Below, piece after piece: positions 16,376-63,141 of a stretch of 64,000 bases of DNA (positions within the stretch are counted from its first letter, which is position 1; each line of letters opens with the position of its first letter). Source of the stretch: Plantactinospora soyae (GTDB lineage: Bacteria; Actinomycetota; Actinomycetes; Mycobacteriales; Micromonosporaceae). The translations under genes and the position numbers were made by a program. Below the pieces are notes generated by a model. The model did not search any database and was not told the DNA's origin. It saw only the letters and a list, made by a program, of their open reading frames with translations. The stretch is from the NCBI RefSeq assembly GCF_014874095.1, contig NZ_JADBEB010000001.1:6386001-6450000 (forward strand). The letters run 5' to 3'.

Positions 16376-17335
16376 CTACAGGCGACCGTCGGGGTGGCGG
16401 GTCAGGTAGCCGCCCATGGTCCGGAAGTAGTCGGTCGCGGCGTGGTCCTGACCGTCGTCGGTGCGTACCCGGGTGATGGCCAGGCCGTGTTCGCGGCCGG
16501 TGCGCGCGTCGGGCCCGGCCACGATCACCACGCCGTCGCCCTCCCGGTAGAAGATCCGGCCTGGGGTGCCGCCGTACCGGTTCTGCGAGACCCGGGCGGC
16601 CAGGATCCGCAGCCGCCGGCCGTCGTGGTGGGTGAAGGCGTTCGGGTACGGGTCGGACTGCGCCCGGACCAGCCGCTCGATCTCGTCGACCGGCCGGGTC
16701 CAGTCGATCCGGATGTCCTCGACCGACCGCTTGTGGAAGAAGCTCGCCTTGGCCCGGTCCTGCTTCGGCCAGTCCGTCCGGCCGGACGCGATCAGGGCCA
16801 GCCCGTCCACGGTGATCGGGCCGAACAGCTCCAGCGTCCGGTGGAACAGGTCGGTGGCGGTGTCGGTCGGGCCGACCGGTACGGCGCGTTGCAGCACGAT
16901 GTCGCCCGCGTCGAGGGTGTCGTCCATCAGATGGGCGGTGACCCCGACCTCGCGCTCGCCGTTGAGCAGGGCCCAGATCAGCGGCGAGAAGCCGGCGTAC
17001 GCGGGCAGCAGCGAGTCGTGCACGTTCAGCGTCCCGCGCGGCGGCAGGTTGAAGATCTCCGGCGGGATCCAGGTACGCCAGTTGGTGGCGACGATGACGT
17101 CGGGCTCGGCCTGCCGGAGCCGCTCCATCAGCTCGGCGTCGCCCGGACGCTTGCGGATCAGCACGGGTACGTCGTGCTTCTCGGCCAGGTCGGCCACCGA
17201 GTCGTCCCAGATCTTCTCGTACGCGTTCTCGCTCTTCGGATGGGTGACGACGAGGCTGACCTCGTGCTCGGAGTTCAGCAGCGCCTCCAGGGTGCGATGC
17301 CCCCAGGTCTGATAGCCGAACATGACAACGCGCAT
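16376..17335 (-). CDS. Formyltransferase, predicted N5-hydroxyornithine formyltransferase of siderophore pathway
   Basis: 319-aa enzyme of the methionyl-tRNA formyltransferase fold. It has the hydroxymethyl/formyl-binding core with LNVHDSLLPAYAGFSP (catalytic His, then SLLP) and the Asp in DDTLDAGDIV; the C-terminal 110 residues form the second domain. It does not sit with a deformylase gene as housekeeping Fmt often does. It is divergent from an ornithine N5-monooxygenase gene across an iron box, like the CchA/CchB pair of the coelichelin pathway. The likely reaction is 10-formyl-THF plus N5-hydroxyornithine giving N5-formyl-N5-hydroxyornithine, a building block for the NRPS at 41-59 kb. The pathway assignment is inferred from context. 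Confidence 0.87.
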   Translation of the reverse strand: MRVVMFGYQTWGHRTLEALLNSEHEVSLVVTHPKSENAYEKIWDDSVADLAEKHDVPVLIRKRPGDAELMERLRQAEPDVIVATNWRTWIPPEIFNLPPRGTLNVHDSLLPAYAGFSPLIWALLNGEREVGVTAHLMDDTLDAGDIVLQRAVPVGPTDTATDLFHRTLELFGPITVDGLALIASGRTDWPKQDRAKASFFHKRSVEDIRIDWTRPVDEIERLVRAQSDPYPNAFTHHDGRRLRILAARVSQNRYGGTPGRIFYREGDGVVIVAGPDARTGREHGLAITRVRTDDGQDHAATDYFRTMGGYLTRHPDGRL

Positions 17336-17424
17336 CGACGCCTCTCCTCTTCGCCTCGCCCGCGGTCGCTTCCGTTCGCCGCGAGAGCAACTGCCAAGCG
17401 GTCCATATTGTCCTTGACCAGGGT

Positions 17425-17443
17425 GTAGGTTAGCCTAACCTAA
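17425..17443. promoter_or_regulatory. Iron box (DtxR/IdeR/DmdR-type) between formyltransferase and monooxygenase genes
   Basis: A 19-base site matches the consensus TTAGGTTAGGCTAACCTAA at 17 positions and is palindromic at all but one end position. It lies 89 bases from the formyltransferase start and 102 bases before the preferred monooxygenase start, so one bound repressor dimer pair could silence both genes when iron is plentiful. It directly touches an ATG at 17444, which argues against that codon as a start. Confidence 0.9.
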
Positions 17444-17545
17444 ATGCCACGGATGGTCGACCGTCCGCGCCAGCCGCACCGGGTCCGTACGGATCCAGTC
17501 CTCCACCAAGCCGGCCGACCGGCCCGGCAGACTGATGGGACAGGT

Positions 17546-18910
17546 ATGTCACCAAGCAATCGCAGCGATGATCCCCAGGTCCACGACCTCCTCGGCATCG
17601 GATTCGGCCCGTCGAACCTCGCCCTGGCCATCGCCATCCGCGAGGCGAACGCGGAGTCCCGCACGGGACACGTCGGCAGCGCGGTCTTCCTGGAACGCCA
17701 GCCCCGCTTCGGGTGGCACCGGGGGATGCTGCTCGACGACACCACCATGCAGGTGTCGTTCCTGAAGGATCTGGTGACGCTGCGCAATCCGGCCAGCGAG
17801 TTCAGCTTCCTCTGCTACCTGCAGAGCCGGGGCCGGTTGATCGACTTCATCAACCACAAGAACCTCTTCCCGTCCCGGGTCGAGTTCCACGACTACCTGG
17901 AGTGGGCGGCGGCCCAGGTCGACGACCTGGTCCGGTACGGCCACGAGGTCGTCGACGTGCGGCCGGTGTGGCAGGACGGCCAACTGGTCGGCTTCGACGT
18001 GGCGGCCCGAACCGGTGCCTGTGCCACCCCGCCGGTCGTGCACCGGGCCCGCAACCTGGTGCTGGGCGCCGGCCTGCGGCCCCACCTGCCCGAGGGCGTC
18101 ACCCTCGACACCCGGATCTGGCACAACCGTGACCTGCTGCCGAACCTCCGGAACCTGGTGCCGGCGGCACCGGCCCGCTTCGTCGTGGTCGGTGCCGGGC
18201 AGAGCGCGGCCGAGGCCGTCGACCACCTGCACCGCGAGTTCCCCCAGGCCGAGGTCTGTGCCGTCTTCTCCCGGTACGGCTACAGCCCGGCCGACGACAG
18301 CGCGTTCGCCAACCGGATCTTCGACCCGGCGGCCGTCGAGGAGTACTTCGAGGCGCCGCGCGGGGTCAAGGAGATGATGCTCGCCTACCACGGCAACACC
18401 AACTACTCGGTGGTCGACCAGGAGCTGATCGACGCCCTGTACCGGCGCGTCTATCAGGAGAAGGTACGCGGCATCGAGCGACTGCGGATGTTCAACCTGT
18501 CCCGGGTGGTGGAGACGGTCCGTACCCCGGAGGGGGTCCGGACGGTGGTGGAGTCGCTGGTGACCAACGAGAAGACGGTGCTCGACGCCGACGTGGTGGT
18601 CTTCGCCACCGGCTACCGGCCGGTCGACCCCTTCGAGCTGCTCGGCGAGGTGGCGCAGGTGTGCCAGCGGGACGAGGCCGGGCGGGCGTTGGTGGACCGC
18701 GACTACCGGCTGCGTACCGGGCCGGAGGTACGGGCCGGGATCTACCTCCAGGGCGGCACCGAACACACCCACGGCATCTCCTCGTCGCTGCTGTCCAACA
18801 CCGCCGTACGGGCCGCCGAGATCCTCGCCTCGATCTCCGCCCGGGCCGTCGCCTCGGACCCGTCGCCCGACCGGCAGCCCGAGTACGCCTGCGCCCCCGG
18901 CCCGGCGTGA
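17546..18910 (+). CDS. L-ornithine N5-monooxygenase (siderophore hydroxylase)
   Basis: Flavin-dependent N-hydroxylating enzyme making N5-hydroxy-L-ornithine, the iron-binding precursor of hydroxamate siderophores. The FAD motif GIGFGPSNLALA is near residue 17, the substrate loop RFGWHRGMLLDDTTMQVSF follows, the NADPH motif VVVGAGQSAAEA lies near residue 215, and FATGY near residue 353. A His/Ser-rich end of the fold (THGISSSLLSN) closes the domain. The start at 17546 is chosen because upstream ATG 17444 abuts the iron box and has no ribosome-binding site; ATGGGACAGG precedes 17546. It is iron-regulated with the divergent formyltransferase. The length (454 aa) fits the SidA/CchB family. Confidence 0.93.
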   Translation: MSPSNRSDDPQVHDLLGIGFGPSNLALAIAIREANAESRTGHVGSAVFLERQPRFGWHRGMLLDDTTMQVSFLKDLVTLRNPASEFSFLCYLQSRGRLIDFINHKNLFPSRVEFHDYLEWAAAQVDDLVRYGHEVVDVRPVWQDGQLVGFDVAARTGACATPPVVHRARNLVLGAGLRPHLPEGVTLDTRIWHNRDLLPNLRNLVPAAPARFVVVGAGQSAAEAVDHLHREFPQAEVCAVFSRYGYSPADDSAFANRIFDPAAVEEYFEAPRGVKEMMLAYHGNTNYSVVDQELIDALYRRVYQEKVRGIERLRMFNLSRVVETVRTPEGVRTVVESLVTNEKTVLDADVVVFATGYRPVDPFELLGEVAQVCQRDEAGRALVDRDYRLRTGPEVRAGIYLQGGTEHTHGISSSLLSNTAVRAAEILASISARAVASDPSPDRQPEYACAPGPA

Positions 18911-19003: not shown

Positions 19004-20623
19004 ATGCAGGGCTCGTACTCGCCGAACCGGCTCCGGTGGCTGGGCCTCGCCTGCTCGGTGGCCATGGCGGCGAGCGCCTACCTCGCCGGGGAGCCGTCGC
19101 AGCGCGGCCCCGGGTGGGGCGTCGGCGTCGCACTCTGGGCGGTCGGCGCCGCCGGGCTGGCAGCCGTCTGGTGGCGACTGCGCAACGTCGCCGCGCCGGG
19201 ATGGCTGCTGGTCACCGGGGCGCTCTGGGCCCTGCCGCTGCTACTGGCACCACCGCTGGGCAGCCACGACGTCTACGCGTACGCCTGCCAGGGTGAACTC
19301 GTCGCGGCCGGACTCGACCCGTACGTCGCCGGGCCGGACGCGCTGCCGTGTCAATGGCTGGACCGGGTCTCGCCGACCTGGCAGGGCACACCGGCGCCGT
19401 ACGGTGCGCTCTGGCTGGTGGTCGAGCGGTTCGCCGGCGCCGTCGCGTACGGGAGTCTGCCGTTCGCGGTGACGGTGCTCCGGCTGGCGGCGATCGGCGG
19501 CGTCCTGCTGGCCACCATCGCCGGGGCCCGACTGGCCCGCCACTGCGGCGCGGAACCGGCCCGGGTGGTCTGGCTCGGGGCGCTGGGCCCACTGACCCTG
19601 GTGCACGCCGTCTCCGGCGCGCACAACGACGCCCTGCTCGCCGGGCTGATCGTGGCCGGCCTGCTGGCCGCAGTCGGTCCACTGCCTGTCGTTGCTCCAC
19701 TGGCTGTCGCCGATTCGTCGGCCCGTGCGGGACGGCTGGCTGCCGCCGGTCCGTTGGCCCGTGCCGGACAGTTGGCTGCCGCCGGTCCGTTGGCCGTCGT
19801 GGAACGGCTGGCTGTCGCCGGACCACCGGCCGGCACGGACCGGCGGATCGCCGTCGCCCGGCTCGTCCTGGCCGGGGCCGCGTTCGGGGCGGCCGCCTCG
19901 ATCAAGGCCACCGCATTGGTGGTCGTGCCGTTCGCGGTCGCCGTCGTGCCGTGGGCCCGGACCGGTCGACGTCGGATCGCGGCCGGCGGGGTCCTGGCCG
20001 TCGCGACCGTCGGCACCGTCGTGCTGCTCGCCGGCCTGACCGGGCACGGCTTCGGCTTCGTGCAGAGTTGGCCGGCGACCGCCGGCAACGTCCAGTGGTC
20101 GTCGATCCTGACCGGCGTCGGCATGGCGGTCGGATACGGGCTGCGGATAGCGGGCCGGCCGGAGGCGTACGCCACCGCCGTCGAGGTCGCCCGGCTGGCC
20201 GGACTGTGCGTGCTGGCCGCCGTCCTGGTGGCGGTGTGGCGGCGGGCACTGCACGGGGGAGTAGCGCAGGGCGTCTCCGCCGCAGGCGTGGCACTGCTCG
20301 CCACCGCGCTGCTCGGTCCGGTGTTCTACGCCTGGTACGCCCTCGCCGGAGTCGCCGTGCTGGCGGCCACCGCACCCCGGGGCCGGGCGGCGACACTGCT
20401 CCATGCCGGTGCCGCCGCGCTGGTCTTCCTCACCCTGCCGGACAGCCTCGGCCTGGTGACGAAGACGAAGGTTCCCGGGGCACTGTTCGACGTACTCCTG
20501 GTCTGTTGGGTGATCGCCTGGCGGGTCGCCGGGGCCCGTCGGGCCAGCTCGCACTGGTCCCAGTCAGGCGGCCGGACGGCGGCGGACCTCGTCGGCCGAT
20601 CCGCGTCGTTCGGCCGGCGCTGA
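19004..20623 (+). CDS. MptB-like alpha-(1,6)-mannosyltransferase (GT-C membrane enzyme)
   Basis: Polytopic membrane protein (539 aa, about 12 hydrophobic segments) resembling MptB, the polyprenyl-phosphate-mannose-dependent transferase that extends alpha-1,6-mannan for lipomannan-type glycolipids. LGSHDVYAYACQGELVAAGLDPY near residue 90 carries the acidic residue of the first loop typical of GT-C enzymes, and VSGAHNDALLAGLIVAG follows. Residues about 232-274 form an unusual Ala/Gly/Pro-rich loop made of 12-residue repeats, absent as far as I know from most MptB. The ATG at 19004 is the first plausible start, with only a weak ribosome-binding site. The identification rests on overall resemblance. 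Confidence 0.75.
   Translation: MQGSYSPNRLRWLGLACSVAMAASAYLAGEPSQRGPGWGVGVALWAVGAAGLAAVWWRLRNVAAPGWLLVTGALWALPLLLAPPLGSHDVYAYACQGELVAAGLDPYVAGPDALPCQWLDRVSPTWQGTPAPYGALWLVVERFAGAVAYGSLPFAVTVLRLAAIGGVLLATIAGARLARHCGAEPARVVWLGALGPLTLVHAVSGAHNDALLAGLIVAGLLAAVGPLPVVAPLAVADSSARAGRLAAAGPLARAGQLAAAGPLAVVERLAVAGPPAGTDRRIAVARLVLAGAAFGAAASIKATALVVVPFAVAVVPWARTGRRRIAAGGVLAVATVGTVVLLAGLTGHGFGFVQSWPATAGNVQWSSILTGVGMAVGYGLRIAGRPEAYATAVEVARLAGLCVLAAVLVAVWRRALHGGVAQGVSAAGVALLATALLGPVFYAWYALAGVAVLAATAPRGRAATLLHAGAAALVFLTLPDSLGLVTKTKVPGALFDVLLVCWVIAWRVAGARRASSHWSQSGGRTAADLVGRSASFGRR
19701..19821 (+). repeat. Four copies of a 36-base unit inside the MptB-like gene
   Basis: TGGCTG followed by TCGCCG or CCGCCGGTCCGTTGG recurs at 19701, 19737, 19773 and 19809, exactly 36 bases (12 codons) apart. 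Copies two and three share 23 identical bases. The repeat keeps the frame and encodes a loop of the form AAAGPLARAGQL. Confidence 0.85.
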
Positions 20624-22441: not shown

Positions 22442-23950
22442 TCAGCCGGGCAGGGCCACCCCGTTGGCGTGGGCGAAGCCGGCCGCCGCACCCAGGTTGC
22501 CGTTGCGGAAGTCGTCCTCGTCGACCCGGCCGACGACACCGCTCCCCGGGTTGTAAACGACCAGGTCCGAGCCCTCGTGCCCGACGAGCAACACATAGTG
22601 GGCCGGGTACGAGTCGCCGGCCAGCACTGGCACGGTGTGCCCGGCGTCGACGGCGGCCACCGCGTCGCGCAGGGCCGGATTGACGCTGCCGGCGTCGGTG
22701 TCGTCGACGAGCCGGAACTCGTACTCGGTGCCGAGGGTGCCGGCGTGGTCGTTGAGTTCCCCGACCAGCCCCCAGGGCGGGGTGCCGAGCTGGTCCGGCC
22801 AGTTGCGACTGGACCGTTCGTAGGTGGCCTGCTGCTCGTCGGCGAGCCGTTGCAGCACCGCGTCCCGGTCGACGGCCTTCGGGTCGTCCGGCTCGCCGCC
22901 GGTGGTCAGGTAGAGCGCGTACAGCGGGTCGGCGATCGAACGGAGCACGACCGTGGTCATCGAGCCACAGGTCACGTCGTTGAACTGGCGCAGCCGTCCG
23001 CCGTCGTACGTCGCCGAACCGGTCTGGCCCGGGTCGACCAGGCTGAGGTGCCGGTGCAGCCAGGCCTCGTCCCGACCGTTGATGGTCCGGCCGAACGCGA
23101 CCACGTCGTCGAGTGGATGTCCGGCGGCCAGCGCCTTGAGCAGGTACGCCCGGTGGGCCTGGCTGGGTGCCTGGGCGAGCAGTTCGTCGACGCGTCGGCG
23201 GTCCTCCGGACCGAGCTGGTCGTACCGGTCGGCGGCCCGGCTGGCCTGGGCTCCGGCGAGGACGGCGTTGTCGCCGGCCAGGTTCCCGTCGATGCCGATC
23301 CCGGTGGTGAGGACGATTCCGGCCGGCGGAAGGGTCGAGTCGGCCATCGCCCCGGCCCGGGCCTTTCCGGTGACGTCGCCGAGCACGATGGCGAGGGCGT
23401 CGGCGGCGACGATGCTCCGGTCGTACACCTCGATGCATCCGGTGACGAGCCGGGTCAGGCCGCGGACCAGGTCGTCCAGGGCGGTCGGGTCGGGAAACGG
23501 GAGCCCGGCGACGTGCGTCGCGTCGTGCCAGGCGTCGCGGAGCGCCCCGTGCAGTTCCTCGTGTCGGCCGCGCAGTGCCCGGACCTCGGTCGCGTAGCTG
23601 TCGAGGGCCGCGCGTACCCGGATGAACTGTGGGCCGGTCGCCTCGATCAGGCCACCGGTCGCGGTGACCAGCTCGGCGGCGCTCGCTCCGGCGACCCCCT
23701 GCCAGATCTCCGGCAACCGCCCGGTGCCGAGCCGTCGTACGTCGGCGGCGATCGGCCCGACGTCGCCGGCGGCCACCCCGAACGCCACGGCCAGCTCCTC
23801 GATCCGGTCCGGGTCGCCGGGCGGCGGTTCGGAGATCATCTGCAGCACCGTGCTGACGGTGCCGACCGCGTTGGCCGGGTTGAGCGCCGACAGGAGCTGG
23901 CGTAGCCGGTTGATCAGCGTGCTGAGCTGGGCGTAGTCGGTGGAGGTCAT
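22442..23950 (-). CDS. Large protein with WXG100-like N-terminus and C39-like cysteine peptidase domain
   Basis: 502 residues. The first 230 are helical and resemble the long helical domains of type VII secretion-linked proteins (EIWQGVAGASAAELVTATGGL, ALRGRHEELHGALRDAWHDA). The C-terminal 200 look like a papain-fold/peptidase C39-type domain: Cys328 in NDVTCGSM, His451 in PAHYVLLVG and Asn467 in VYNPGSG would form a catalytic triad. It starts six bases after an EspC-like gene, so the two are co-expressed. It may be an effector, a toxin or a processing enzyme; the sequence does not tell. No cognate ESX ATPase is in the window. Confidence 0.75.
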   Translation of the reverse strand: MTSTDYAQLSTLINRLRQLLSALNPANAVGTVSTVLQMISEPPPGDPDRIEELAVAFGVAAGDVGPIAADVRRLGTGRLPEIWQGVAGASAAELVTATGGLIEATGPQFIRVRAALDSYATEVRALRGRHEELHGALRDAWHDATHVAGLPFPDPTALDDLVRGLTRLVTGCIEVYDRSIVAADALAIVLGDVTGKARAGAMADSTLPPAGIVLTTGIGIDGNLAGDNAVLAGAQASRAADRYDQLGPEDRRRVDELLAQAPSQAHRAYLLKALAAGHPLDDVVAFGRTINGRDEAWLHRHLSLVDPGQTGSATYDGGRLRQFNDVTCGSMTTVVLRSIADPLYALYLTTGGEPDDPKAVDRDAVLQRLADEQQATYERSSRNWPDQLGTPPWGLVGELNDHAGTLGTEYEFRLVDDTDAGSVNPALRDAVAAVDAGHTVPVLAGDSYPAHYVLLVGHEGSDLVVYNPGSGVVGRVDEDDFRNGNLGAAAGFAHANGVALPG

Positions 23951-26304: not shown

Positions 26305-27030
26305 ATGCCGCGAGTCAGTTCGTACCGACGCCGGGACGGTACCCGGGTCAGGGGCCACTACCGGTCCCGGCGTCCCGGCGGTGGCCGGTCCCGGCGGCCG
26401 TACGCCCGACGGCGCTCGTCCCGACCGGCCGCGCCGGACCGGTCCGGCTGGTGGCTCGCCGGAGTCGGCGGCGCGCTGGCCGCCGCCTGGGTGATCACCG
26501 AGTTCGTCCAGCGGCATCCGGTCTGGTCGACCCTCATCGCGATCGGGCTGGTGGCCGGCGGAATCGCCGTGCTGACCCTCGTGCTCAAGGCCCGCGCCCG
26601 GCGGGCGGCACAGGACCGGGCGCGGGCCCGCCACGTCGAGGCGACGGACGCGATGACCGGGCCGGAGTTCGAGGACTGGGTCGCCGGGGTGCTGGTCCGG
26701 TCCGGCTTCTCCGGGGTGCGGGTGTGCGGGGGCTCGGCCGATCGCGGCGCGGACATCACGGCGACCGCGCCGGACGGCCGCCGGGTCGTCGTGCAGTGCA
26801 AGCGACACGGCCCGACGAACCGGGTGGGTAGCGCGGCGATCCAGAAGTTCGCCGGAACCTGCCGCAGCATCCACGGTGGCGAGATCTGCGTGATCGTGAC
26901 CAACGGGTTGTTCGCGGCCGGCGACGGGCTCCGGCTCGCCCGGGAACTGGACATCGGCCTGGTCGACCGGTCGGCCCTGGCAGTCTGGGCCTACACCGGC
27001 TCGGCGCCGGCGGCCATCGGCCGCTACTGA
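26305..27030 (+). CDS. Membrane-anchored Mrr-like restriction endonuclease protein
   Basis: 241 residues. An Arg/Ser/Tyr-rich N-terminus is followed by two transmembrane helices (WWLAGVGGALAAAWVITEF and LIAIGLVAGGIAVLTLVL), then a basic segment and an Mrr-type nuclease domain. The domain shows GPEFEDWVAGVLVRSGFSG, the metal-ligand Asp in RGADITATAP and the QCK of VVVQCKRH. The ATG at 26305 follows AGGAG with five-base spacing. It overlaps the convergent GH5 gene by seven bases. Membrane-bound Mrr domains occur in defence and housekeeping contexts; no methyltransferase gene is nearby. Confidence 0.83.
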   Translation: MPRVSSYRRRDGTRVRGHYRSRRPGGGRSRRPYARRRSSRPAAPDRSGWWLAGVGGALAAAWVITEFVQRHPVWSTLIAIGLVAGGIAVLTLVLKARARRAAQDRARARHVEATDAMTGPEFEDWVAGVLVRSGFSGVRVCGGSADRGADITATAPDGRRVVVQCKRHGPTNRVGSAAIQKFAGTCRSIHGGEICVIVTNGLFAAGDGLRLARELDIGLVDRSALAVWAYTGSAPAAIGRY

Positions 27031-28427
27031 GGTCGTCGCTCCGCCGCCAGGTGCGCGCGCAGCGTCTCGACCAGGGCGTCCCGCCGGGTGCAGTCCCGCA
27101 GCGCGAACGAGGCGGCCAGTTCTTCGGCCTGGTCGGGAGTCACCCCCTCGAAGCACCGGCCGAAGTCCCGGACCATCGGCTCGGCGAGCAGGATGTGCCG
27201 GACCAGCAGGTGGATCCAGGCCCGGCGACCCCACGGGTACGGCTCGAAGTCCGGGTACTCCCGATCGAAGAGTTCCTCGATCGGGTCGAGGATCTGTCGG
27301 ACCTGCCGATCGGTACCGCCCCAGGAGTCCACGCCGAGCCGGGCCTTCTTCGCCACCACCGGTGCGATCCGCTGCCGGTACGGGCTCTGCTCGGCCGCGT
27401 ACACCAGCCCCTGCAACCCGACGTCCTTGTACGTCCACAGTGCCCAGCTCGCGCCGTGGGACCGGTAGATGTCGAGCTGGTCGCCGAGCAGCCGCAGCCG
27501 GGAGGCGTCCCGTTCCGGCTCACCGGTGTAGACCGGACCGAACTCGCCGATCCAGATCGGCGTACCGGTGCGCCGCATGAACTCGGTGCGCCGCAGGAAC
27601 GATCGCTCGACCGCCGACCTGTCGAAGTACTCGCCCCGGGTGATCCCCGGATACTCGCTGCCGGCGGCGATCCCCGGGAGCGCGTAGTCGTGCGCCGTGT
27701 AGACCGTGTCGGGAAACGGTTCGGTGAACATCGAGAAGTCGGTGGAGTAGCGGTTGCCGTCCAGGAACAGCACGTGCCGGGGGTCGACCTGACGGATCGC
27801 CCCGACGAGGCGTTCGTAGAAGGGCCCGATGACCTCGCCGGACGGATCGGCGGGTTCGTTGACCGGGTTGTAACCGGCCACCGCCGGGTTGTCCCGGTAC
27901 CGGTCGGCGATCGCCTCCCACAGGTGCACGACCCGGTCCTGGAAGTGCCGGTGGGTCCAGAAGTGCGCCCAGTGGGTGGGGTTGTCACTGTGCCAGTTCT
28001 GGTTCTGGTGTCCGGGCACCGCGTGCAGGTCGAGGATGGTGTAGAGGCCGGCGTCGGCGCACTGCTCGACGACCCGGTCCAGCCAGTGGAATCCCTCCGG
28101 CTTGAGTACGAACGGACGGTCGTCGTCCTCGAAGTGCCGGTAGTTGAACGGCACCCGTACCGAGTTGAAGCCCAACGAGGCGAGGTAGCCGGCGTCCTCG
28201 GCGGCGAAGAAGTCGGTCAGGAACCGCGCGAAGAAGCGCTGGTAGCCCTCGTCGCCGAGGGCCGCGCGCAGGGCCTGGCGCTGCTGGGACTCGGTCCCCG
28301 GGTAGCCGGTGATGAAGTTCTCCATGTTGAGCCAGCCGCCGAGGCCGACTCCGGCGAGGGTCACGACCGTTCCGGTGGCGTCGACGAGCCGGTCGCCGTC
28401 GACCCGGATCCAGGGCAGCTTCTTCAT
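27024..28427 (-). CDS. GH5 family glycoside hydrolase
   Basis: 467-residue intracellular-looking (no signal peptide) GH5 enzyme with a TIM barrel. The N-terminal LAGVGLGGWLNMENF is typical. The acid/base Glu191 is in NPVNEPAD and the nucleophile Glu295 in WIGEFGP; His in LDLHAVPG and TAHDYAL fit the family's active-site residues. The C-terminal 100 residues are not catalytic. The ATG at 28427 follows AGGAGG. It lies eight bases after a LacI-type regulator gene, so they share a transcript and it belongs to a sugar regulon with the divergent ABC importer. Oligosaccharides imported by that transporter are the likely substrate. Confidence 0.9.
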   Translation of the reverse strand: MKKLPWIRVDGDRLVDATGTVVTLAGVGLGGWLNMENFITGYPGTESQQRQALRAALGDEGYQRFFARFLTDFFAAEDAGYLASLGFNSVRVPFNYRHFEDDDRPFVLKPEGFHWLDRVVEQCADAGLYTILDLHAVPGHQNQNWHSDNPTHWAHFWTHRHFQDRVVHLWEAIADRYRDNPAVAGYNPVNEPADPSGEVIGPFYERLVGAIRQVDPRHVLFLDGNRYSTDFSMFTEPFPDTVYTAHDYALPGIAAGSEYPGITRGEYFDRSAVERSFLRRTEFMRRTGTPIWIGEFGPVYTGEPERDASRLRLLGDQLDIYRSHGASWALWTYKDVGLQGLVYAAEQSPYRQRIAPVVAKKARLGVDSWGGTDRQVRQILDPIEELFDREYPDFEPYPWGRRAWIHLLVRHILLAEPMVRDFGRCFEGVTPDQAEELAASFALRDCTRRDALVETLRAHLAAERRPQ

Positions 28428-28435
28428 GTCGCCTC

Positions 28436-29566: not shown

Positions 29567-29748
29567 CTCGTGTCTCCCCTGCGCGGCCGACCGTGCTTTC
29601 CGTCCGATCAGGACGGACGAACTCGCGGGCGGCGCGGCCACGTCCGCAGGGAACCCCCGAGTGGCACCTCGGTGGCCGCCGCGAAGGCGTGGGAGCGCAC
29701 GGTAACCGCTCGTTGACGTCCTGCTGACTGCCTGGCGGGCCTCGAAGA

Positions 29749-29757
29749 TACCGGTTA
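29749..29757. promoter_or_regulatory. LacI-type operator-like site O1
   Basis: TACCGGTTA, matching the core ACCGGTT of site O2. It lies near the predicted LacI gene promoter on the minus strand (TTGCTA and TATCTT, 18 bases apart), so binding could autoregulate the repressor. Confidence 0.5.
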
Positions 29758-29770
29758 CCCGATCTTGATA

Positions 29771-29782
29771 GCAACCGGTTTC
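29771..29782. promoter_or_regulatory. LacI-type operator-like site O2
   Basis: GCAACCGGTTTC is a near-perfect palindrome with the central CG typical of LacI-family operators. It is in the 405-base gap between the LacI gene (start 29566) and the sugar permease (start 29972). Confidence 0.6.
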
Positions 29783-29845
29783 TTTGATCTTCGCTTCGAC
29801 CTGCGCCGGAATGTTTCCACAGGTGGACGGCCTACATTTGTCTCG

Positions 29846-29882
29846 TTGACAGTTGATGTTGGCTTTGTTAGAAACTGGTTAC
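29846..29882 (+). promoter_or_regulatory. Promoter and operator O3 of the sugar ABC importer operon
   Basis: TTGACA (29846-29851) and TAGAAA (29869-29874) are separated by 17 bases, a good housekeeping-type promoter. GAAACTGGTTAC (29871-29882) overlaps the -10 hexamer and differs from O2 at few positions, so a LacI-type repressor bound there would block transcription. The transporter start lies about 100 bases downstream. Confidence 0.65.
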
Positions 29883-29971
29883 TCGGCCCAGAACCGGGCC
29901 CTGCGGGCATGATGGGCATGACGGGCATGGTCGACGCTCCACTCGCGACATCTCCGGCGAAGGGTGCTCTG

Positions 29972-36751: not shown

Positions 36752-37648
<897 letters not shown>

Positions 37649-37649
37649 G

Positions 37650-38714
37650 TCAGCCTCCAGAACCGGCGCGGTTGGCCCGGATGAGTAGCCAGAGCAGGAA
37701 CGTCGCGCCGAGCGCCCCGGTGACCACTCCGACCGGCAGGTCGACGTCCGGGATGAGCCAGCGGGCCACCAGGTCGCTGGCCGAGACCATCAGCGCCCCG
37801 GTCAGCGCGGAGGCCAGTACCGGCGGCGCGGGCAGTCGGGCCAGCCGCTGGGCGATCTGTGGTGCGGCGAGCGCCACGAAGAGGATCGGCCCGGTGGCCG
37901 CGGTGGCGAACGCAACGAACGCGACGCCCACCAGCACCAGGCTGAGTCGGGCCGTCTGGACCGGGGTGCCAAGGCCACGGGCCACCTCGTCACCGAGTTG
38001 CAGGGTACGGGTCCAGCGCCCGAGCAGCAGGGCCGCCGGAAGCAGTACGGCGACCGCGGCGGCCAACGGTCCGACCGCCTCCCAACCGCGCCCATTCAGG
38101 TTCCCGACCAGCCAGCCGACCGCTGCCTGTGCCTCGACCAGTTGGGCCCGGGTCAGCAGGTAGTCGGTGGCGCTGGAGCACATCCAGGAGACCGCGATGC
38201 CGACCAGCACGATCCGGTACCCGGTCGCGCCCCGGCGCCAGGCGAGCAGGTAGATGACGGCGGCGGTGGCGAGCCCGCCGGCCAGCCCGAGCGTCGGCAG
38301 GCTGAGCCCGGTGCCGCCGATCACGATCCCGGCCACCACGGCGGTGGTGGCGCCGGCGTTGATGCCGATCATGTCGGGGCTGGCCAGTGGGTTGCGGGTG
38401 ATGGTCTGGAACACCGCTCCGGAGACCGCGAACGCCGCACCGGCCAGTACGGCGGTCAGCGCCCGGGGCAGCCGGAGTTCCCGCACGATGAAGACCTGAC
38501 CGGCGTCGCCGGAACCCCAGAGCGCCGGCACCACCCGCAGTGGGTTCATCGGGTAGTCCCCGGTCGCGATGCCGACGCAGAAGACCACGAACAGCGCGAC
38601 GGTGAGCCCGAGGCAGCAGAGCAGCAGCCGGGGCCGTACCACGCCGGAGACCGGTGGCTTGGCGATCCGGAAGGCGGTCCGCCGGCCGGTCCGGTTCAGT
38701 TCGACCAGAGACAC
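37650..38714 (-). CDS. Iron-siderophore ABC transporter permease (FecD-like)
   Basis: 354-residue FecCD-family permease with about ten helices. Motifs include LRLPRALTAVLAGAAFAVSGAVFQ, NPLASPDMIGINAGA and the C-terminal LPVGVVTGALGATFLLWLL. GTG start at 38714, three bases after the upstream permease. With its partner it forms the membrane channel for an Fe(III)-siderophore. Confidence 0.94.
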   Translation of the reverse strand: MSLVELNRTGRRTAFRIAKPPVSGVVRPRLLLCCLGLTVALFVVFCVGIATGDYPMNPLRVVPALWGSGDAGQVFIVRELRLPRALTAVLAGAAFAVSGAVFQTITRNPLASPDMIGINAGATTAVVAGIVIGGTGLSLPTLGLAGGLATAAVIYLLAWRRGATGYRIVLVGIAVSWMCSSATDYLLTRAQLVEAQAAVGWLVGNLNGRGWEAVGPLAAAVAVLLPAALLLGRWTRTLQLGDEVARGLGTPVQTARLSLVLVGVAFVAFATAATGPILFVALAAPQIAQRLARLPAPPVLASALTGALMVSASDLVARWLIPDVDLPVGVVTGALGATFLLWLLIRANRAGSGG

Positions 38715-38717
38715 GGC

Positions 38718-39794
38718 TCAGAGCTCCGCGAGCCGGCGTCGGCGTACCAGGGCGATGAAGAACGGGCCGCCGATGAAGGCGGAGATGATGCCGACCCCGA
38801 CCTCGCTGGGGCGGGCGATGACCCGGCCGATGACGTCGGCCAGCAGCAGCAGGCTCGGCGCGAGCACCATGGTGAACGGCAGCAGCCAGCGGTGGTTCGG
38901 TCCGGTGATCAGGCGGGCCACGTGTGGAACCATCAGGCCGACGAAGACGATGGAACCGGCGACCGCGACCGCCGCGCCGGCGAGCAGGGTCACCGCCAGG
39001 GTGCCCTGTAGGCGTACCAGACCGACCCGCCGGCCCAGGGCGGCGGCGACGTCGTCACCGAGGGCGAGGCTGTTCAGGGCCGGGGCGGTGGCGAGGGCCA
39101 GTACGATGCCGACGGCCAGGAACGGCAGCAACTGGAGCACGGTCTCGGTGCCCGGTCCGGAGAGCGAGCCGGCCGCCCAGAACCGGTAGCGGTTCAGCGC
39201 CTCCGGGTCACGGAGCACGACGGCGCTGGTCACCGAGTTGAGCAGGAAGGTGATCGCCACTCCGGCGAGCGCGACCTTGACCGGGGTGGAGCCGCCCCGG
39301 CCGAGCCCGCCCAGCAGGTACACCACGATGCTGGCGACCAGCGCGCCGACGAAGGCGAACCAGATGTAGCCGTAGAGCGTGGCGATTCCGAACCAGGCGA
39401 TGGCGATGACGATTCCGAGCGCGGCCCCGGCGCTGACGCCGAGCAGACCGGGGTCGGCGAGCGGATTGCGGGTCAGCCCCTGCATCAGTGCGCCGGAGAG
39501 GCCCAGGGCCATTCCGACGAGCAGGCCGAGCAGCGTACGGGGCAGGCGTACGCCCCAGACGATCGCCTCGACCTGCGGATCGGTTCCGCGCATTCCGGCC
39601 CGGTCGAGCAGGGCCTGCACCACCTGGTCGAGTGGGATCTGCCGGCTACCGACGGCGATCGACACCAGCGACAGGACGATCAGGACGGTCGTGGCGACCA
39701 GGAACAGCCCGACCGGCCTGCCGGGTCGGAACCGCCTTGCCCGGCCCGGCCGGGGTTGGACCCGGCGCGCCGGGGTTGCCTGCTCCGTTGACAC
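38718..39794 (-). CDS. Iron-siderophore ABC transporter permease (FecC-like)
   Basis: 358-residue FecCD permease. Family motifs are VRLPRTLLGLLVGMALGLSGALMQ, NPLADPGLLGVSAGA and LLADVIGRVIARPSEVGVGI. GTG start at 39794 with GAGGAC ahead. It is the first gene of the importer operon and is separated from the divergent binding-protein gene by the 345-base region containing two iron boxes. Confidence 0.94.
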   Translation of the reverse strand: MSTEQATPARRVQPRPGRARRFRPGRPVGLFLVATTVLIVLSLVSIAVGSRQIPLDQVVQALLDRAGMRGTDPQVEAIVWGVRLPRTLLGLLVGMALGLSGALMQGLTRNPLADPGLLGVSAGAALGIVIAIAWFGIATLYGYIWFAFVGALVASIVVYLLGGLGRGGSTPVKVALAGVAITFLLNSVTSAVVLRDPEALNRYRFWAAGSLSGPGTETVLQLLPFLAVGIVLALATAPALNSLALGDDVAAALGRRVGLVRLQGTLAVTLLAGAAVAVAGSIVFVGLMVPHVARLITGPNHRWLLPFTMVLAPSLLLLADVIGRVIARPSEVGVGIISAFIGGPFFIALVRRRRLAEL

Positions 39795-39887: not shown

Positions 39888-39935
39888 GTTCAGAACTTCG
39901 TTGCTGGGGAGTCTCCGTCGCCGAGGTGGTTGAGG

Positions 39936-39954
39936 TTAGGTAAGGATTACCTTA
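39936..39954. promoter_or_regulatory. Iron box B in the fec/siderophore-binding protein divergent region
   Basis: TTAGGTAAGGATTACCTTA matches the consensus at 15 of 19 positions. It is 186 bases upstream of the binding-protein start and 142 from the permease start. Two boxes in a divergent region suggest separate control of each promoter. The rest of 39795-40139 shows no gene. Confidence 0.78.
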
Positions 39955-40139
39955 CTATCACCGGGGAGCGGAGCCGATGTCGGTGCCGCGCCGATCGGGG
40001 TCGACGCCGACCCGACGTCTTCGCACCGCCTTCCGATCGCCCGGACGTGATCTGCGGACCCGGGGTCCGCCGGAACCGAACCCAGCCGACCGCCCGGAAT
40101 CCGCCGCACGGGGCCCGGAGAGAATTCGAAGAGGAGCCG

Positions 40140-41159
40140 ATGTCCAGCACACCTGCCCGCGCGACCCGCTTGGGGCCCGTCGCCCGACTGGCGGCAGCCC
40201 TGGTCGTCCTCGCACTCGGCCTCGCCGGCTGCGGTGACACCGGCGGCGACGACCCGGCGCCCGCGGCCACCTCCGGTGCCTTCCCGGTGCGGATCGACCA
40301 CAAGTACGGCGCCACCGAGATCACCAAGCAGCCCACCCGGGTAGTCACGCTCGGGCTCAGCGACCAGGATCCGGTGCTCGCCCTCGGGACCGTGCCGGTG
40401 GGCGCCATCGACTGGTTCCTGGAGCGGCCGTACGGCAAGTGGCCGTGGGTCCAACCGCTGTGGGGCAGCACCCCGCCGGAGATCGTCGGCGAACGCGACG
40501 ACTACAACATGGAGAAGATCGCCGCCCTCCGACCGGATCTGATCATCGGGCTCTACTCCGGGATGACCCAGGAACAGTACGGGCAGTTGTCCAAGCTCGC
40601 GCCGACCGTCGCGCAGCCCAAGGGCTTCGAGGACTACGCCGCGCCCTGGCAGGACATGACCCGGCTGGCCGGTCGGGCGCTCGGCCGGCCCGAGCAGGCC
40701 GACAAGCTGATCGCCGACGTCGACGCGCGGTTCGCCAAGGCTCGGCAGGAACACCCCGGGTACGCCGGCAGGACCGTCGCGGTGGTCGACCCGTACGAGG
40801 CCGGCAAGTACGCGGTGTTCGCACCGAGCGACCCGAAGGTGGTCTTCATGACCCAGCTCGGATTCACCGTGCCGGACACCATCGTGCAGGCCGTCGGCAA
40901 GGAGTACGCCGCCGAGATCGGCTCCGAACGGCTCGATCTGGTCAACGTGGACAAGCTGCTGTTCCTCACCTCGGACGGCAGCGCCGAGCCCCGGGTGAAG
41001 GCGGACAAGGTGTACTCCAGCCTCGACGTGGCCAAGCAGAACCGGGCGGTCTTCCTGCCGTACGAGAACCCGCCGCTGGGTGGCGCACTCTCGTTCAGCA
41101 CCGTGCTGAGCGTCCCGTACGCCCTGGACCAGATCCTTCCGCTGCTCGGCGACGGCTGA
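40140..41159 (+). CDS. Iron-siderophore-binding lipoprotein (FepB/FecB-like)
   Basis: 339-residue solute-binding protein with lipobox LGLAGC after a hydrophobic stretch, then GDTGGDD. The class III fold is visible in [54 protein letters not shown] and the long connecting helix. The ATG at 40140 follows AAGAGGAG. It lies 95 bases before the NRPS start in the same orientation and opposite to its permease and ATPase genes, so uptake of the locus's own siderophore is expected. Confidence 0.94.
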
Positions 41160-41254: not shown

Positions 41255-58717
<17,463 letters not shown>

Positions 58718-58770: not shown

Positions 58771-59001
58771 ATGACCACCAATCCGTTCGAGGACCCCGAG
58801 GGGCAGTACGTCGTGCTCGTCAACGACGAGGCGCAGCACTCCCTGTGGCCGTCCTTTGTGGAAATCCCAACCGGCTGGTCGGTGGCGTTCGGTGTCGACG
58901 GGCCGCAGTCCCGGGACGACTGCCTGGCGTACGTGGAGAAGAACTGGACCGACCTGCGACCGCGCAGCCTGCGGGAGCGGATGGAGGACGTGACCGGCTG
59001 A
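58771..59001 (+). CDS. mbtH: MbtH-like protein
   Basis: 76 residues, the usual size. Family features are [26 protein letters not shown], the two conserved Trp of the pattern (SLWPSF and PTGWSVAF) and [17 protein letters not shown]. MbtH proteins bind A domains and are often needed for their solubility and activity. The gene follows the NRPS by 53 bases with GAGGAGAGG upstream, so it belongs to the same transcript. Confidence 0.96.
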
Positions 59002-59007
59002 CGGTGT

Positions 59008-59484
59008 TCAGTCGTGGTCGTAGACGGTGACGCGCACGTCGCGTTGCCCCAGCGTGGCGACGACGATCGGCTCGATCCGTTCCCAACGCCCGCCGGCCAG
59101 ACCGCAACCGATCCGGGGCATGTGGACCGAGGCGCCGAGTTCCCGGGCGTGGTCGGCCAGGATGGTCAGGCACCGTTCGACCGCGTCGTACCGGACCGGC
59201 GGCCCGGCCGACCCGTGCCGGGTGCCGCGCTGCCCGACCATGTTCGCCACCCAGATGTCGGGACGGACCCGGACCAGACGGACCGCGCCGAGCCCGAAGT
59301 CGTTCTCGGCGCGGTGGCGGTGCCACTGCCGGTAGTCGCGTTCCGGCTCCGGCCAGCGTCGGGACAGGGCCAGCACGAAACCCTTGCCCCAGCCGCCGAT
59401 GTCGTTGCAGAGGTGGGCGATTATCTTCGGCCCCTTGGCCTGCGGGTTGGTCGCGTCCCCTCGGATGATCTGCGGCGGCGTCAC
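59008..59484 (-). CDS. Macro-domain protein (ADP-ribose-binding type)
   Basis: 158 residues. The domain begins IIRGDATNPQAKGPKIIAHLCNDIGGWGKGF, with the Asn and Gly residues of the ADP-ribose pocket, and continues with MPRIGCGLAGGRWERIEPIV, the second phosphate-binding loop. The start is a GTG at 59484 with only a weak ribosome-binding site; upstream codons are Arg/Pro-rich. It is convergent with mbtH, six bases away, and not obviously part of siderophore biosynthesis. Probable ADP-ribosyl or related phosphate hydrolase. Confidence 0.84.
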   Translation of the reverse strand: MTPPQIIRGDATNPQAKGPKIIAHLCNDIGGWGKGFVLALSRRWPEPERDYRQWHRHRAENDFGLGAVRLVRVRPDIWVANMVGQRGTRHGSAGPPVRYDAVERCLTILADHARELGASVHMPRIGCGLAGGRWERIEPIVVATLGQRDVRVTVYDHD

Positions 59485-59557
59485 CCGTGCAGCATGCCAG
59501 CCGGGTACGACGGGGCAGGGCGAGAGCGTGCGCGCGGCAGGTCGCCGATCGTGCGCC

Positions 59558-61366
59558 CTACCGACCGTCGTGCTCCGGCGTCGACCCGTTCTGACGGGTG
59601 CCGGCCCAGGCGGCCCAGAGTTCGGCGTACCGGCCACCGGCGGCGACGAGTTCGTCATGGGTACCGGTCTCCGCCACCCGTCCGGCGTCGAGCACGATGA
59701 TCCGGTCCGCGCTCACCGCCTGGGTCAGCCGGTGCGCGACCACCAGCCCGGTACGCCCGTCCAGGGCCCGGGCGGCGGCGGTCTCCAGCAGGCGTGCACC
59801 CGCGCTGCCGGCCTCGGCGGTGGCCTCGTCGAGGATCGCCACCGGCGGCGCGGCCAGGGTGAGCCGGGCCAGCGCGAGTTGCTGGGCCTGGGCCGCGGTG
59901 AGCCGGTGTCCACCGTCGCCGACCACCGTCGCCAGCCCGTCCGGCAGGGCCCGTACCCAGCCGAGCGCGCCGACCCGGTCGAGGGCGGCGAGCAGATCGT
60001 CGTCGGTGGCGTCCGGCCCGGCCAGCCGCAGGTCCTCGGCGAGCGGCCCGGCGAAGACGTGCACCTCCTGGCTGATCAGCGCCACGGTCCGGCCGGCCAC
60101 GGCGGCGCCGAGGTCGTCGATCGGTACGCCGCCGAGCCGGATGGTGCCGCCGCTCGCCTGGTGGATGCCGGCGATCAGCTTCGCCAGGGTGGTCTTGCCG
60201 GCGCCACTGGCTCCGACCAGCGCGACCCGTTCGTTCGCCGCGACACTGATCGTCACGTCGTGCAACACGTCGTGGCCCGGCGTGTACGCGTGCCGCAGGT
60301 CCTTGGCCTCGATCGTGCCGTCCACCGGCACCGGCCGGCCCTCCTCCCGACGTGCGGCGGGCAGCCGGGTGACCCCGACCAGCCGGACCAGGCTCGCGGC
60401 GGCCGACTGCGCGTCGTCGACGAGACTGAGCGCGGCGTTGAGCGGACCGAACAGGTTGTGGAAATACAGGGCGGCGGCGGACGCCGTGCCGACGCTCACC
60501 GCGTCCGCGCGGACCAGTAGGAAACCGGTGACGAGGACGGCGCTCAGCCCGATGAACTCGGCGATGTTGAGCCGGCCGAAGAACCGGGTCATCAGCCGGA
60601 TCCCGCGCAGGGTGAGGTCGACGGCGGCGTTGGACCGTCCGGCGACCCGCTCCAGGTGCGGTTCGGTGAGCCGGAAGGCGCGTACGGTGCCGGCCCCGGC
60701 AACCGTGTCGAGCAACTGCTGCTGCTGGACTCCGAGCGCGACCCGCTGGCTGGCGTACAGCGGGGTGGCGTGTTTGGCGTACCACCGGACGGTGTGCAGC
60801 TGCACCGGCACCGCGAGCAGGGCGGCGAGCATGAACCGCCAGTCCAGCACGGCGAGCCCGACCAGGGTCAGGCCGATGGTCAGCAGGGACCGGGCGAGCT
60901 GGGGCAGCGCGTTCCGGACCGCCTCGGCGATCACCGTGACGTCCCCGGTGACCCGTGCGGTCAGGTCGCCGGACCCGGCCCGCTCCACCTGCTCCAGGGG
61001 CAGGTCCAGGACCCGGTCGATGAACCGTTCCCGCAGCTGTGCGAGCATCCCCTCGCCGAGCCGGGCGACGAGGGAGAGGCCGAGCGCCAGCGACGCCCCC
61101 TGGACGAGCGCGATCAGTCCGAGCAGCAGCGCCGGTCCGGTGATCGCGTTCGCCGGTCGGCCGTCGACGACCAGGTCCACGATCCGGCCCAGCACCGGGG
61201 CGGTGAGCAGGCCGACCGCGGTCGATGCGACGAGCAGCCCGAAGGCGCGTACGGCCAGGAACCGGCGCCCGCGCATCAGCTCGGCCAGCGTGGCGCGGAC
61301 CTGCCGTCCGGTCGCCGTCGGCAGCAACTCGCGCTGCGGCTGGCCGGGGTTGGCGCTGGGGCTCAT
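59558..61366 (-). CDS. ABC half-transporter with intact Walker motifs, siderophore export candidate
   Basis: 602 residues with six transmembrane helices and one NBD. Walker A is GASGAGKTTLAK and Walker B VAILDEATAE, both intact, but the signature reads LTAAQAQQLALARL instead of LSGGQ. The ATG at 61366 is chosen because AGGAGGAG lies eight bases upstream; a GTG at 61450, overlapping the upstream stop (GTGA), would add 28 residues. The partner gene has the complementary defects, so the two should form a heterodimer with a single good ATP site. Siderophore export is inferred from the iron box and the adjacent NRPS. Confidence 0.87.
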   Translation of the reverse strand: MSPSANPGQPQRELLPTATGRQVRATLAELMRGRRFLAVRAFGLLVASTAVGLLTAPVLGRIVDLVVDGRPANAITGPALLLGLIALVQGASLALGLSLVARLGEGMLAQLRERFIDRVLDLPLEQVERAGSGDLTARVTGDVTVIAEAVRNALPQLARSLLTIGLTLVGLAVLDWRFMLAALLAVPVQLHTVRWYAKHATPLYASQRVALGVQQQQLLDTVAGAGTVRAFRLTEPHLERVAGRSNAAVDLTLRGIRLMTRFFGRLNIAEFIGLSAVLVTGFLLVRADAVSVGTASAAALYFHNLFGPLNAALSLVDDAQSAAASLVRLVGVTRLPAARREEGRPVPVDGTIEAKDLRHAYTPGHDVLHDVTISVAANERVALVGASGAGKTTLAKLIAGIHQASGGTIRLGGVPIDDLGAAVAGRTVALISQEVHVFAGPLAEDLRLAGPDATDDDLLAALDRVGALGWVRALPDGLATVVGDGGHRLTAAQAQQLALARLTLAAPPVAILDEATAEAGSAGARLLETAAARALDGRTGLVVAHRLTQAVSADRIIVLDAGRVAETGTHDELVAAGGRYAELWAAWAGTRQNGSTPEHDGR

Positions 61367-61446
61367 CGGGGGAACTCCTCCTGAGGACCGGTCCGGTTGG
61401 GCTGGTGCTGCGGTACCGGTCATCACGTCTTCGGGGGTACGGGTCG

Positions 61447-63141
61447 TCACGTCAGCACCGAGGCCCGGTAGTCGGCGTGGTCGCGTACCAGGTCCGGATG
61501 GCTGCCCTCGGCGCGGACCGTGCCCTCGTCGACCAGGACGACCCGGTCGGTGATCGAGAGCAGCGCCGGGCTCGTGGTCACCAGCAGGGTGGTCCGGTCC
61601 TGTCGCAGCGAGCGGAGTCCGGCCGCGATCCGGGCCTCGGTGGCCGCGTCGACCGCCGTGGTCGGGTCGTGCAGGACCAGGACCGGCGCCTCGGCGGCCA
61701 GGGCCCGGGCCAGCGCCACCCGCTGGCGCTGTCCGCCGGACAGCGACCGTCCGCGCTCGGCCAGTGGGGTGTCGACACCCTGGGGCAGGGTCCGGACCAG
61801 CTCGTCCACGTCGGCCGCGGCCATCGGCCGGGTCACGTCGCCCCCGGCCGGGGCGGCCGCGCCCACGTTGTCGAGCACGCTGCCCTCGAACAGGTCGGCG
61901 TCGTGCGGCGCGACCAGGATCGCGGCCCGCAGGTGTGCGGGGTCCAGGGTGTGCAGCGCGACGCCGTCCAACTCCACGGTGCCGGTGTCCGGGTCGACGT
62001 CGCGGCCGAGGCAGCGCAGCAGGTCGGCCGCGACGGCCGGATCCGTCGCCACGATTCCGAGCAGCTCGCCCGGCGCGCTGTGCAGGCTGACCCCGCGCAA
62101 CGTGCCGGACCGGACGTCGCGCAGGTCGATCCGGCCGCGGACCGGGGTGGCCGGTCGGCCGGTGCCGTCCGGGGTCGCCTGCGGGGCGCCGAGCACCGAG
62201 GCGATCCGGGCGGCCGAGGCGCGACCCTGGGCGAACTCCGCGTTCACCCAGCCGAAGGTGGAGAGCGGGCCGAGCAGGAACAGCGCCAGGCCCACGGCCG
62301 CGACGAGTTGACCGACGGTCAGCTCACCCTGGGCGGCGAGCCGGCCACCGAGCAGGCCGACCGCCGCGACGAAGAGTCCGGTGACGGCGAGGATGGTGCC
62401 GTCGTACCAGGCCTGGGCCCGGGCCGCCCGGATGGTGGCGGCGAGGGAGTCCTGACTGGTCCGTCGGTAGCGGTTGGCTGCGGCGGGGGCCGCGCCGAGC
62501 CCTTTGAGTACCCGCAGCCCGGCCACCAGGTCGGCGGCGACTCCGGAGGCGTACGCCGCACGTTCCTGCTCGGCGTGGCTGCGTCGCTCCAGCGGACGGC
62601 CGAGGAGGTGGGCCAGCCAGAGCAGCAGCGGCGCGCCGATCAGCACCAGCAGGCCGAGCGGCACCGAGACCACCAGCAGTGCCGCACCACCGACCAGGAG
62701 ACCGGTGAGCGCCCCGATCCCGACCGGCAGCGCCCGGTTGACCGTGCCGACCCGGTCGGCGTCGCCGGTGGCGATCGAGACCAGCGCACCGGGTAGCTGA
62801 CCGGCCTCGGAGCCGCCACGATGGTCCAGGATCCGTCGGGTCAGTGCGATTCGGAGCTGGTGTGCGGCCTGCTCGACCGCGCGTTCCCCGGTCCGGGCGC
62901 TGAGTCGGAAGCTGACCGAGAGCACCGCGAACATCCCGGCCAGTACGCCGATCCAGCCGATCAGGTCGGCGATGCCGCCCCGGCCGACGGCCCGGTCGAT
63001 GACCACTCCGATCAGCACCGGGATGAGCGCCTCGCCGGCCTGGTGTCCGGCGCTGAGCGCCGCGCTGGCGGCGACGTGCCGGGTCTGGCCGGTGATGGCC
63101 CCGACCAGGACCGTACGCGCCGAGGGACTGCCGGTGGTCAC
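61447..63141 (-). CDS. ABC half-transporter with degenerate Walker motifs but intact signature
   Basis: 564 residues: a six-helix membrane domain, then an NBD whose Walker A region reads GIVATDPAVAADLL (no Lys) and Walker B VLVLHDPTTAVD (His and Asp for the usual Asp-Glu), while LSGGQRQRVALARAL is intact. The GTG at 63141 follows GGAGGAG. It is the first gene of the exporter operon, downstream of an iron box. Such degenerate subunits occur in heterodimeric ABC exporters; here the degeneracy is pronounced. Confidence 0.88.
   Translation of the reverse strand: MTTGSPSARTVLVGAITGQTRHVAASAALSAGHQAGEALIPVLIGVVIDRAVGRGGIADLIGWIGVLAGMFAVLSVSFRLSARTGERAVEQAAHQLRIALTRRILDHRGGSEAGQLPGALVSIATGDADRVGTVNRALPVGIGALTGLLVGGAALLVVSVPLGLLVLIGAPLLLWLAHLLGRPLERRSHAEQERAAYASGVAADLVAGLRVLKGLGAAPAAANRYRRTSQDSLAATIRAARAQAWYDGTILAVTGLFVAAVGLLGGRLAAQGELTVGQLVAAVGLALFLLGPLSTFGWVNAEFAQGRASAARIASVLGAPQATPDGTGRPATPVRGRIDLRDVRSGTLRGVSLHSAPGELLGIVATDPAVAADLLRCLGRDVDPDTGTVELDGVALHTLDPAHLRAAILVAPHDADLFEGSVLDNVGAAAPAGGDVTRPMAAADVDELVRTLPQGVDTPLAERGRSLSGGQRQRVALARALAAEAPVLVLHDPTTAVDAATEARIAAGLRSLRQDRTTLLVTTSPALLSITDRVVLVDEGTVRAEGSHPDLVRDHADYRASVLT

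Follow-up and report, generated by a model that had tools for sequence, protein, structure and literature searches.

The synthetases of erythrochelin and foroxymithine are four-module nonribosomal peptide synthetases (NRPSs) with acylated N5-hydroxyornithine (acyl-hOrn) in modules 1 and 4, N5-hydroxyornithine (hOrn) in module 3, and a terminal condensation (C) domain, from which release as a diketopiperazine is expected. We compared them with an NRPS locus of Plantactinospora soyae (Micromonosporaceae) that lies in a 64,000-nucleotide window (bases 6386001-6450000) of a complete 9.7-Mb genome. The locus has the same arrangement, with four adenylation-thiolation (A-T) modules, an hOrn code in module 3, and a terminal C domain without a thioesterase. 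However, its module 1 has a methyltransferase (MT) and no starter C domain, and its position 2 code is not that of serine. There is a formyltransferase, as in foroxymithine; erythrochelin has an acetyltransferase instead.

Three other systems share parts of this design; like all papers cited below except PMC5968735, their sources are cited for excerpts. Scabichelin-type NRPSs (Streptomyces; Phytohabitans nrps-3) also begin with an N-methylating acyl-hOrn module, but they have five modules, two MTs, and a cyclic hOrn end (PMC7692728). Coelichelin shares the D,D,L pattern and the residues formyl-hydroxyornithine (fhOrn), Thr, and hOrn, but it is made by three modules with no MT and no terminal C domain (PMC9854754); the P. 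soyae NRPS does not stop after the T domain that follows hOrn. Albisporachelin, from Amycolatopsis, is a tetrapeptide tris-hydroxamate that starts with N-methyl-fhOrn and so is a precedent for such a first residue; the original prediction for this DNA had named scabichelin-type siderophores as one. It differs in continuing with Ser, fhOrn, and cyclo-N-methyl-hOrn, all L, and in having no diketopiperazine (PMC6024995).

Our reading, to which we give a probability of roughly 0.7, is that the locus encodes the iron-repressed biosynthesis, export, and uptake of a tris-hydroxamate tetrapeptide siderophore, predicted to be the diketopiperazine N-methyl-D-fhOrn/D-X/hOrn/fhOrn, where X is the second residue. 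The biosynthetic features are as follows.

16376..17335, minus strand: N5-hydroxyornithine formyltransferase (Formyl_trans_N and _C)
17444..18910, plus strand, likely true start near 17546: L-ornithine N5-monooxygenase (Lys_Orn_oxgnase, E 1.6e-104)
41255..58717, plus strand: four-module NRPS of 5,820 residues (Pfam, own-domain models, start analysis)
41345..42760, plus strand, with its C-terminal part at 43862-44095: A1, code DVWILGAVNK, acyl-hydroxyornithine type (domain model, code)
42761..43558, plus strand: N-methyltransferase inserted in A1 (Pfam, domain model; closest solved structure 5wmm)
44120..45793, plus strand: T1 and epimerization domain E1, motif QHAVVDG, catalytic second His kept
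45854..50758, plus strand: module 2, with C2 (HHIVTDG), A2 (DTWTSGFVQK), T2, and E2 (HHLVVDG) (domain model, code, motifs)
50822..52132, plus strand: C3, the C domain feeding hOrn, second motif His replaced by Leu
52172..54043, plus strand: A3 (DMENLGLINK, N5-hydroxyornithine) and T3 (domain model, code)
54146..57316, plus strand: module 4, with C4 (HHIATDE), A4 (DVFILGAVNK), and T4 (domain model, code, motifs)
57347..58678, plus strand: terminal C domain, motif HYLGVDE at 57758-57778, second His replaced by Tyr (motif, tree)

We called the NRPS domains twice, with Pfam and with hidden Markov models (HMMs) built from the NRPS's own domains. Pfam does not distinguish E from C domains, and the own-domain HMMs together with motifs separate them. 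Both searches gave the order A(MT)-T-E / C-A-T-E / C-A-T / C-A-T / C, exactly as had been predicted, and all four carrier serines are present. The open reading frame is listed from 40439, but since the binding-protein gene before it runs to 41159, the GTG at 41255 is most likely the NRPS start. The MT has an S-adenosylmethionine-binding motif and matches 5wmm, which we take to be the structure of an N-methylating NRPS, at E 5e-68. It stands where a starter C domain, our proxy for an alpha-N-acetyl cap, would be expected. A1 and A4 belong to the same code class, which we assign to acyl-hOrn, and the A3 code is presumably the hOrn code of coelichelin; it also occurs in module 3 of the coelichelin-like loci L195-L198. 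(The DMWNLGLINK of our code tables is an alignment-gap artefact.) These codes agree with the predicted unacylated hOrn at residue 3 and with similar acyl-hOrn residues at positions 1 and 4. As a separate observation, the first motif His of E1 (44372-45793) is Gln in the window, and the 13 other E1 domains of the same architecture have HH.

The hydroxyornithine formyltransferase and monooxygenase that had been claimed are both in the cluster, as expected for a hydroxamate siderophore. Homologue searches for both spanned the whole genome, and the ornithine N-hydroxylase at 17444-18910 was the only match of its kind. For the formyltransferase, the genome has two further but much weaker matches (27% and 29% identity), and orthologs of it, 70 to 95% identical, were found in all 20 clusters fetched from other genomes.

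Those clusters came from a search of the family with the MT region as the query; at a cut-off of E 1e-40, 92 of the 354 genomes had a match. We fetched 20 of the 91 other matching genomes and read the architecture in 21, including that of the window. Of these, 14 have the window's exact architecture: 5 belong to Plantactinospora, 8 to genus g4, and 1 to g11. Another six carry scabichelin-like NRPSs (incomplete in G321 and G324), and the NRPS of G332 is cut by a contig end. The second E domain of G014 was split in the HMM search, and its motif was left unread.

The pathway would run as follows. The monooxygenase would hydroxylate N5 of ornithine, and the formyltransferase would then convert the product to fhOrn. 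Module 1 would load fhOrn, methylate its alpha nitrogen, and epimerize it, and module 2 would add D-X, with X probably not serine. C3 may join X to the N5-OH nitrogen of hOrn, which would make the middle hydroxamate and leave the alpha-amine free. After module 4 had added fhOrn, this free amine of residue 3 would attack the last thioester at the terminal C domain and release the chain as a diketopiperazine. If a diketopiperazine is formed, residue 3 must be linked through its N5-OH nitrogen.

Several points weigh against this product. Diketopiperazine closure is carried over from the structures of erythrochelin and foroxymithine as we take them to be. The terminal C domain is without the canonical His (Tyr in 13 of the 23 domains of its clade, His in 10), and hydrolysis to a linear acid is possible. 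X is unpredicted from the A2 code. Finally, the products of such NRPSs can deviate from collinearity, as with coelichelin (PMC9854754).

The alternative that survives best, although we consider it unlikely, is a linear tetrapeptide acid, released by an external hydrolase because the Tyr-bearing terminal C domain is inactive or a mere gate. The second His is indeed Tyr (HYLGVDE) in all five complete Plantactinospora NRPSs, and His (HHLxVDE) in the nine other genomes of the same architecture. However, the domain is in frame and recognised over its full length in all five, and HY is also found in eight of nine related NRPSs from other families (L184-L192). These relatives, six of them without an MT, fall with the window's domain in one clade of 23 (support 1.0). 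HY occurs in all six MT-less relatives (L186-L191) and in L185 and L192, and we therefore rejected the idea that it is a lesion of Plantactinospora. In our reading, Tyr may be a residue that a diketopiperazine-forming domain can tolerate, and not a sign of decay.

A second alternative concerns residue X, which the original prediction had provisionally set as serine. The sequence supported the rest of its residue set (four residues, the first N-methylated and epimerized and the second epimerized), and also the hydroxamate class, the terminal C domain, and the likeness to both the erythrochelin/foroxymithine and the scabichelin lines. It did not support serine. Among the 14 genomes with the window's architecture, 13 have DTWTSGFVQK as the A2 code, and G055 has DVWTSGFVQK. 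The code differs at six of nine variable positions from DVWHxSLVDK, which we take to be the serine code. It is improbable, although not negligibly so, that X is nonetheless serine, with the altered code as a neutral variant. Outside its own code group, A2 is closest to serine-code A domains (61.9% identical to one with DVWHFSLVDK), but the changed code is retained in 13 of the 14 genomes, which span three genera, and its ending, G-x-V/I-Q-K, is common to a wider set of module 2 A domains (DPLDFGVIQK, DPLVLGVIQK, DALAFGVVQK, and DAWDFGCVQK, carried among L184, L186, L189, L190, G312, G313, G338, and G031). Judged by its code, X is thus unlikely to be serine, and the mass calculated for the serine form, 547.26 Da (C21H37N7O10), is not secured and is one candidate only. 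X should be D-configured, given the intact E domain, unless it is glycine. We tried to read X from LgrA, the top-ranked solved structure, but dropped it because its score is the sum of two A domains. The next nearest structures (8xjz, fuscachelin FscH, Txo2, and EntF) gave no usable specificity, and a search for the A-domain codes as text in papers found no occurrence.

The remaining alternative, a scabichelin-type siderophore from a mis-segmented cluster, would account for the 55% identity of the MT region of module 1 to its counterpart in the Streptomyces scabichelini locus L069, but it is highly improbable and already refuted by domain order. In the read examples (G312, G313, G338, and G031) there are two MTs among five modules, the last of which carries DAWEGGLVDK and is followed by an E domain. 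In the window a single MT and four modules lead to a terminal C domain, and there is no cyclic-hOrn last module.

The diketopiperazine reading also depends on C3, in which the second His of HHxxxDG is missing. The C3 motif is HHLVLWDG, and its HLVLWDG (51251-51271) is in the HHxxxDG register with Leu as the second residue. An ungapped alignment to the solved C domain 8hlk likewise places the second His on this Leu. We tabulated the motifs of 408 C-A pairs, after repeat removal, over the loci read. The searches behind these loci started from the MT region and from the C3-A3 of the window itself (81 genomes besides the window's matched the latter, and 69 loci from 56 of them were read), so the hOrn set is biased toward the window's clade. 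Among C domains that feed DMENxGLINK, 80 of 84 have lost the second His (56 Leu, 19 Val, and 5 Phe). It is lost in 6 of the 324 others (in L083, L098, L099, and L106) and kept in 318, including all of those that feed the other hOrn module, DAWEGGLVDK or DAWEGGFVDK (27/27), acyl-hOrn codes (56/56), and serine codes (67/67). Nineteen polypeptides have both hOrn modules, and in every one the C domain before DMEN is without the His and that before DAWEGG has it. We take N5-OH to be the point of linkage in the DMEN hOrn, and the alpha-amine to be that in the DAWEGG hOrn. The His-less C domain is shared with the DMENLGLINK module of scabichelin-type NRPSs and with the hOrn module of the coelichelin-like loci L195-L198. 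DAWEGGLVDK has been assigned to hOrn in scabichelin (PMC7692728).

These counts are not independent, since 83 of the 84 DMENxGLINK-feeding domains form one clade (support 0.982). Inside it is a His-less clade of 79 (support 0.974), with Trp before DG in all 79 and an Arg that occurs in 1% of other C domains. Domains with HH (L183, L194, L204, and L221) branch first within the hOrn clade, and L202 looks like a separate His loss. L183 (the same gene region as L193) and L204 adjoin Gly modules like those of fuscachelin, and L194 groups with them. We considered fuscachelin as an alpha-amide control that would explain the kept HH, but rejected it because ring size, by our count, puts Ser on N5. A C domain with HH can therefore probably make the N5 hydroxamate bond. 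This counts against any rule that the bond goes with His loss, and it suggests that the loss is tolerated and allowed rather than needed.

We tentatively propose, at somewhat less than even odds, that C domains acylating the hOrn N5-hydroxylamine include a functional class that discarded the catalytic His (HHxxxDG to x[LVF]xxWDG, plus the clade-specific Arg). The hydroxylamine would be unprotonated and strongly nucleophilic, and so no general base would be needed. The terminal C domain, with HY, might depart from this motif in a second, cyclizing way. In the general view the central His deprotonates the alpha-amine, but this is debated, and its mutation does not always abolish activity (PMC8097023). 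In a terminal C domain the second His has been treated as a substrate-positioning residue (PMC10587159), and an atypical fungal C motif, SHxxxDxx, has been described (PMC10212144). In the literature searched, which was seen in part and mostly without subscription papers, we found no description of a C domain that feeds hOrn and is without the His.

The same comparisons bear on the start of the assembly line. A full N-terminal C domain is present in none of 16 MT-first tetramodular NRPSs (the 14 of the window's type, L184, and L185), whereas all six tetramodular NRPSs without an MT (L186-L191) have an N-terminal starter C domain. (L192 was left out of the count; its frame starts later, and it shows three modules.) At the first residue, methylation thus seems to have taken over from N-acylation, with the MT in place of the starter C domain. 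Some scabichelin-type NRPSs (G312, G313, G338, L069, and L078) have weak partial C-domain matches before A1, which might be left over from a starter C domain.

The other parts of the locus, including iron boxes, are listed below.

17425..17443, no strand: iron box in the formyltransferase/hydroxylase control region, 1 mismatch to consensus
36752..39794, minus strand: ferric-siderophore ABC importer, one ATPase and two permease genes (FepC/FepG/FepD-like)
39930..41159, plus strand, true start downstream of 39930: siderophore-binding lipoprotein (Fe-siderophore substrate-binding families)
39936..39954, no strand: probable iron box between the importer and binding-protein genes, 4 mismatches, palindromic
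58771..59001, plus strand: MbtH-like protein (PF03621, E 7.7e-25)
59558..63141, minus strand: two ABC exporter genes (MsbA-type families)
63169..63187, no strand: iron box upstream of the exporter genes, 2 mismatches to consensus

About 18 kb, filled mostly with unrelated genes, separates the hydroxylase from the importer genes, a gap that the original prediction did not mention. From 27024 to 33135 it has genes for a sugar ABC transporter, a GH5-type glycosidase, and a LacI regulator. Three of the five other Plantactinospora loci (G333-G335) have the LacI, permease, and sugar-binding genes at the same place, with none found in the G332 or G337 loci, and the GH5 gene recurs in one of the five. 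In the six Plantactinospora loci, the formyltransferase and the NRPS are 11 to 24 kb apart; in the 15 fetched loci of other genera, they are within about 6 kb of each other. The importer genes and the binding lipoprotein recur in all five other Plantactinospora loci, and 5 of the 15 loci from other genera have them whole. The first exporter has orthologs in four other Plantactinospora loci and in four from elsewhere; some of the loci end before they would include it.

We searched for iron boxes with a 19-bp consensus that we take to be of the IdeR/DmdR type, allowing up to 3 mismatches and using 100 shuffles as the control. There were four matches (two sites, each on both strands) in the window and none in the shuffles. 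The box at 17425-17443 is identical in all six Plantactinospora loci, and G337 has a box similar to that upstream of the exporters. The third, at 39936-39954, is weaker. With a looser pattern that finds it, 1.24 matches are expected by chance; by that pattern alone it is within chance, and so this diverged palindromic box rests on its conservation (6/6 Plantactinospora loci) and its place. Cluster promoters thus have two strong sites and one weaker conserved site, and through these boxes the two parts of the locus look like one iron-regulated set joined across the gap. By eye we also saw another palindrome that resembles an iron box, TTAGGATAGGTATACCTTA, at about 39870-39890, between the importer and binding-protein genes.

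Three more genes were noted. Downstream of the hydroxylase (19004-20623, plus strand) is a membrane protein that looks mannosyltransferase-like by eye; it had no match in the Pfam search and has matches in all five other Plantactinospora loci (partial in G333). A protein at 22442-23950 (minus strand) has a sub-threshold WXG100-like match, and among the 20 other fetched loci it has a partial match only, in the close relative G332. Beside the exporters, a small protein (59008-59658, minus strand) has weak similarity to the DarG macrodomain antitoxin (E 6.5e-8, far below the cut-off); a comparison with the 20 other fetched clusters at E 1e-15 gave no match for it.

An antiSMASH-named "erythrochelin" cluster of two Plantactinospora strains, BB1 and BC1, a list entry without domain analysis or product (PMC5968735), is possibly the same type of locus. 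We found no paper with the predicted N-methylated product in the literature searched, by searches partly aimed elsewhere and in sources seen in part. If the proposal for C3 is true, the His-less motif would predict from sequence which nitrogen of hydroxyornithine is linked, N5-OH or alpha-amine, and this would be of use in genome mining. Presumably working His-less C domains beside His-keeping ones in the same polypeptide would also make the role of the His testable. As judged from its sequence, the locus belongs to a known siderophore line, of which it represents a conserved branch marked by N-methylation. The family has been little studied, and the prediction offers a mass-targeted way to the product.

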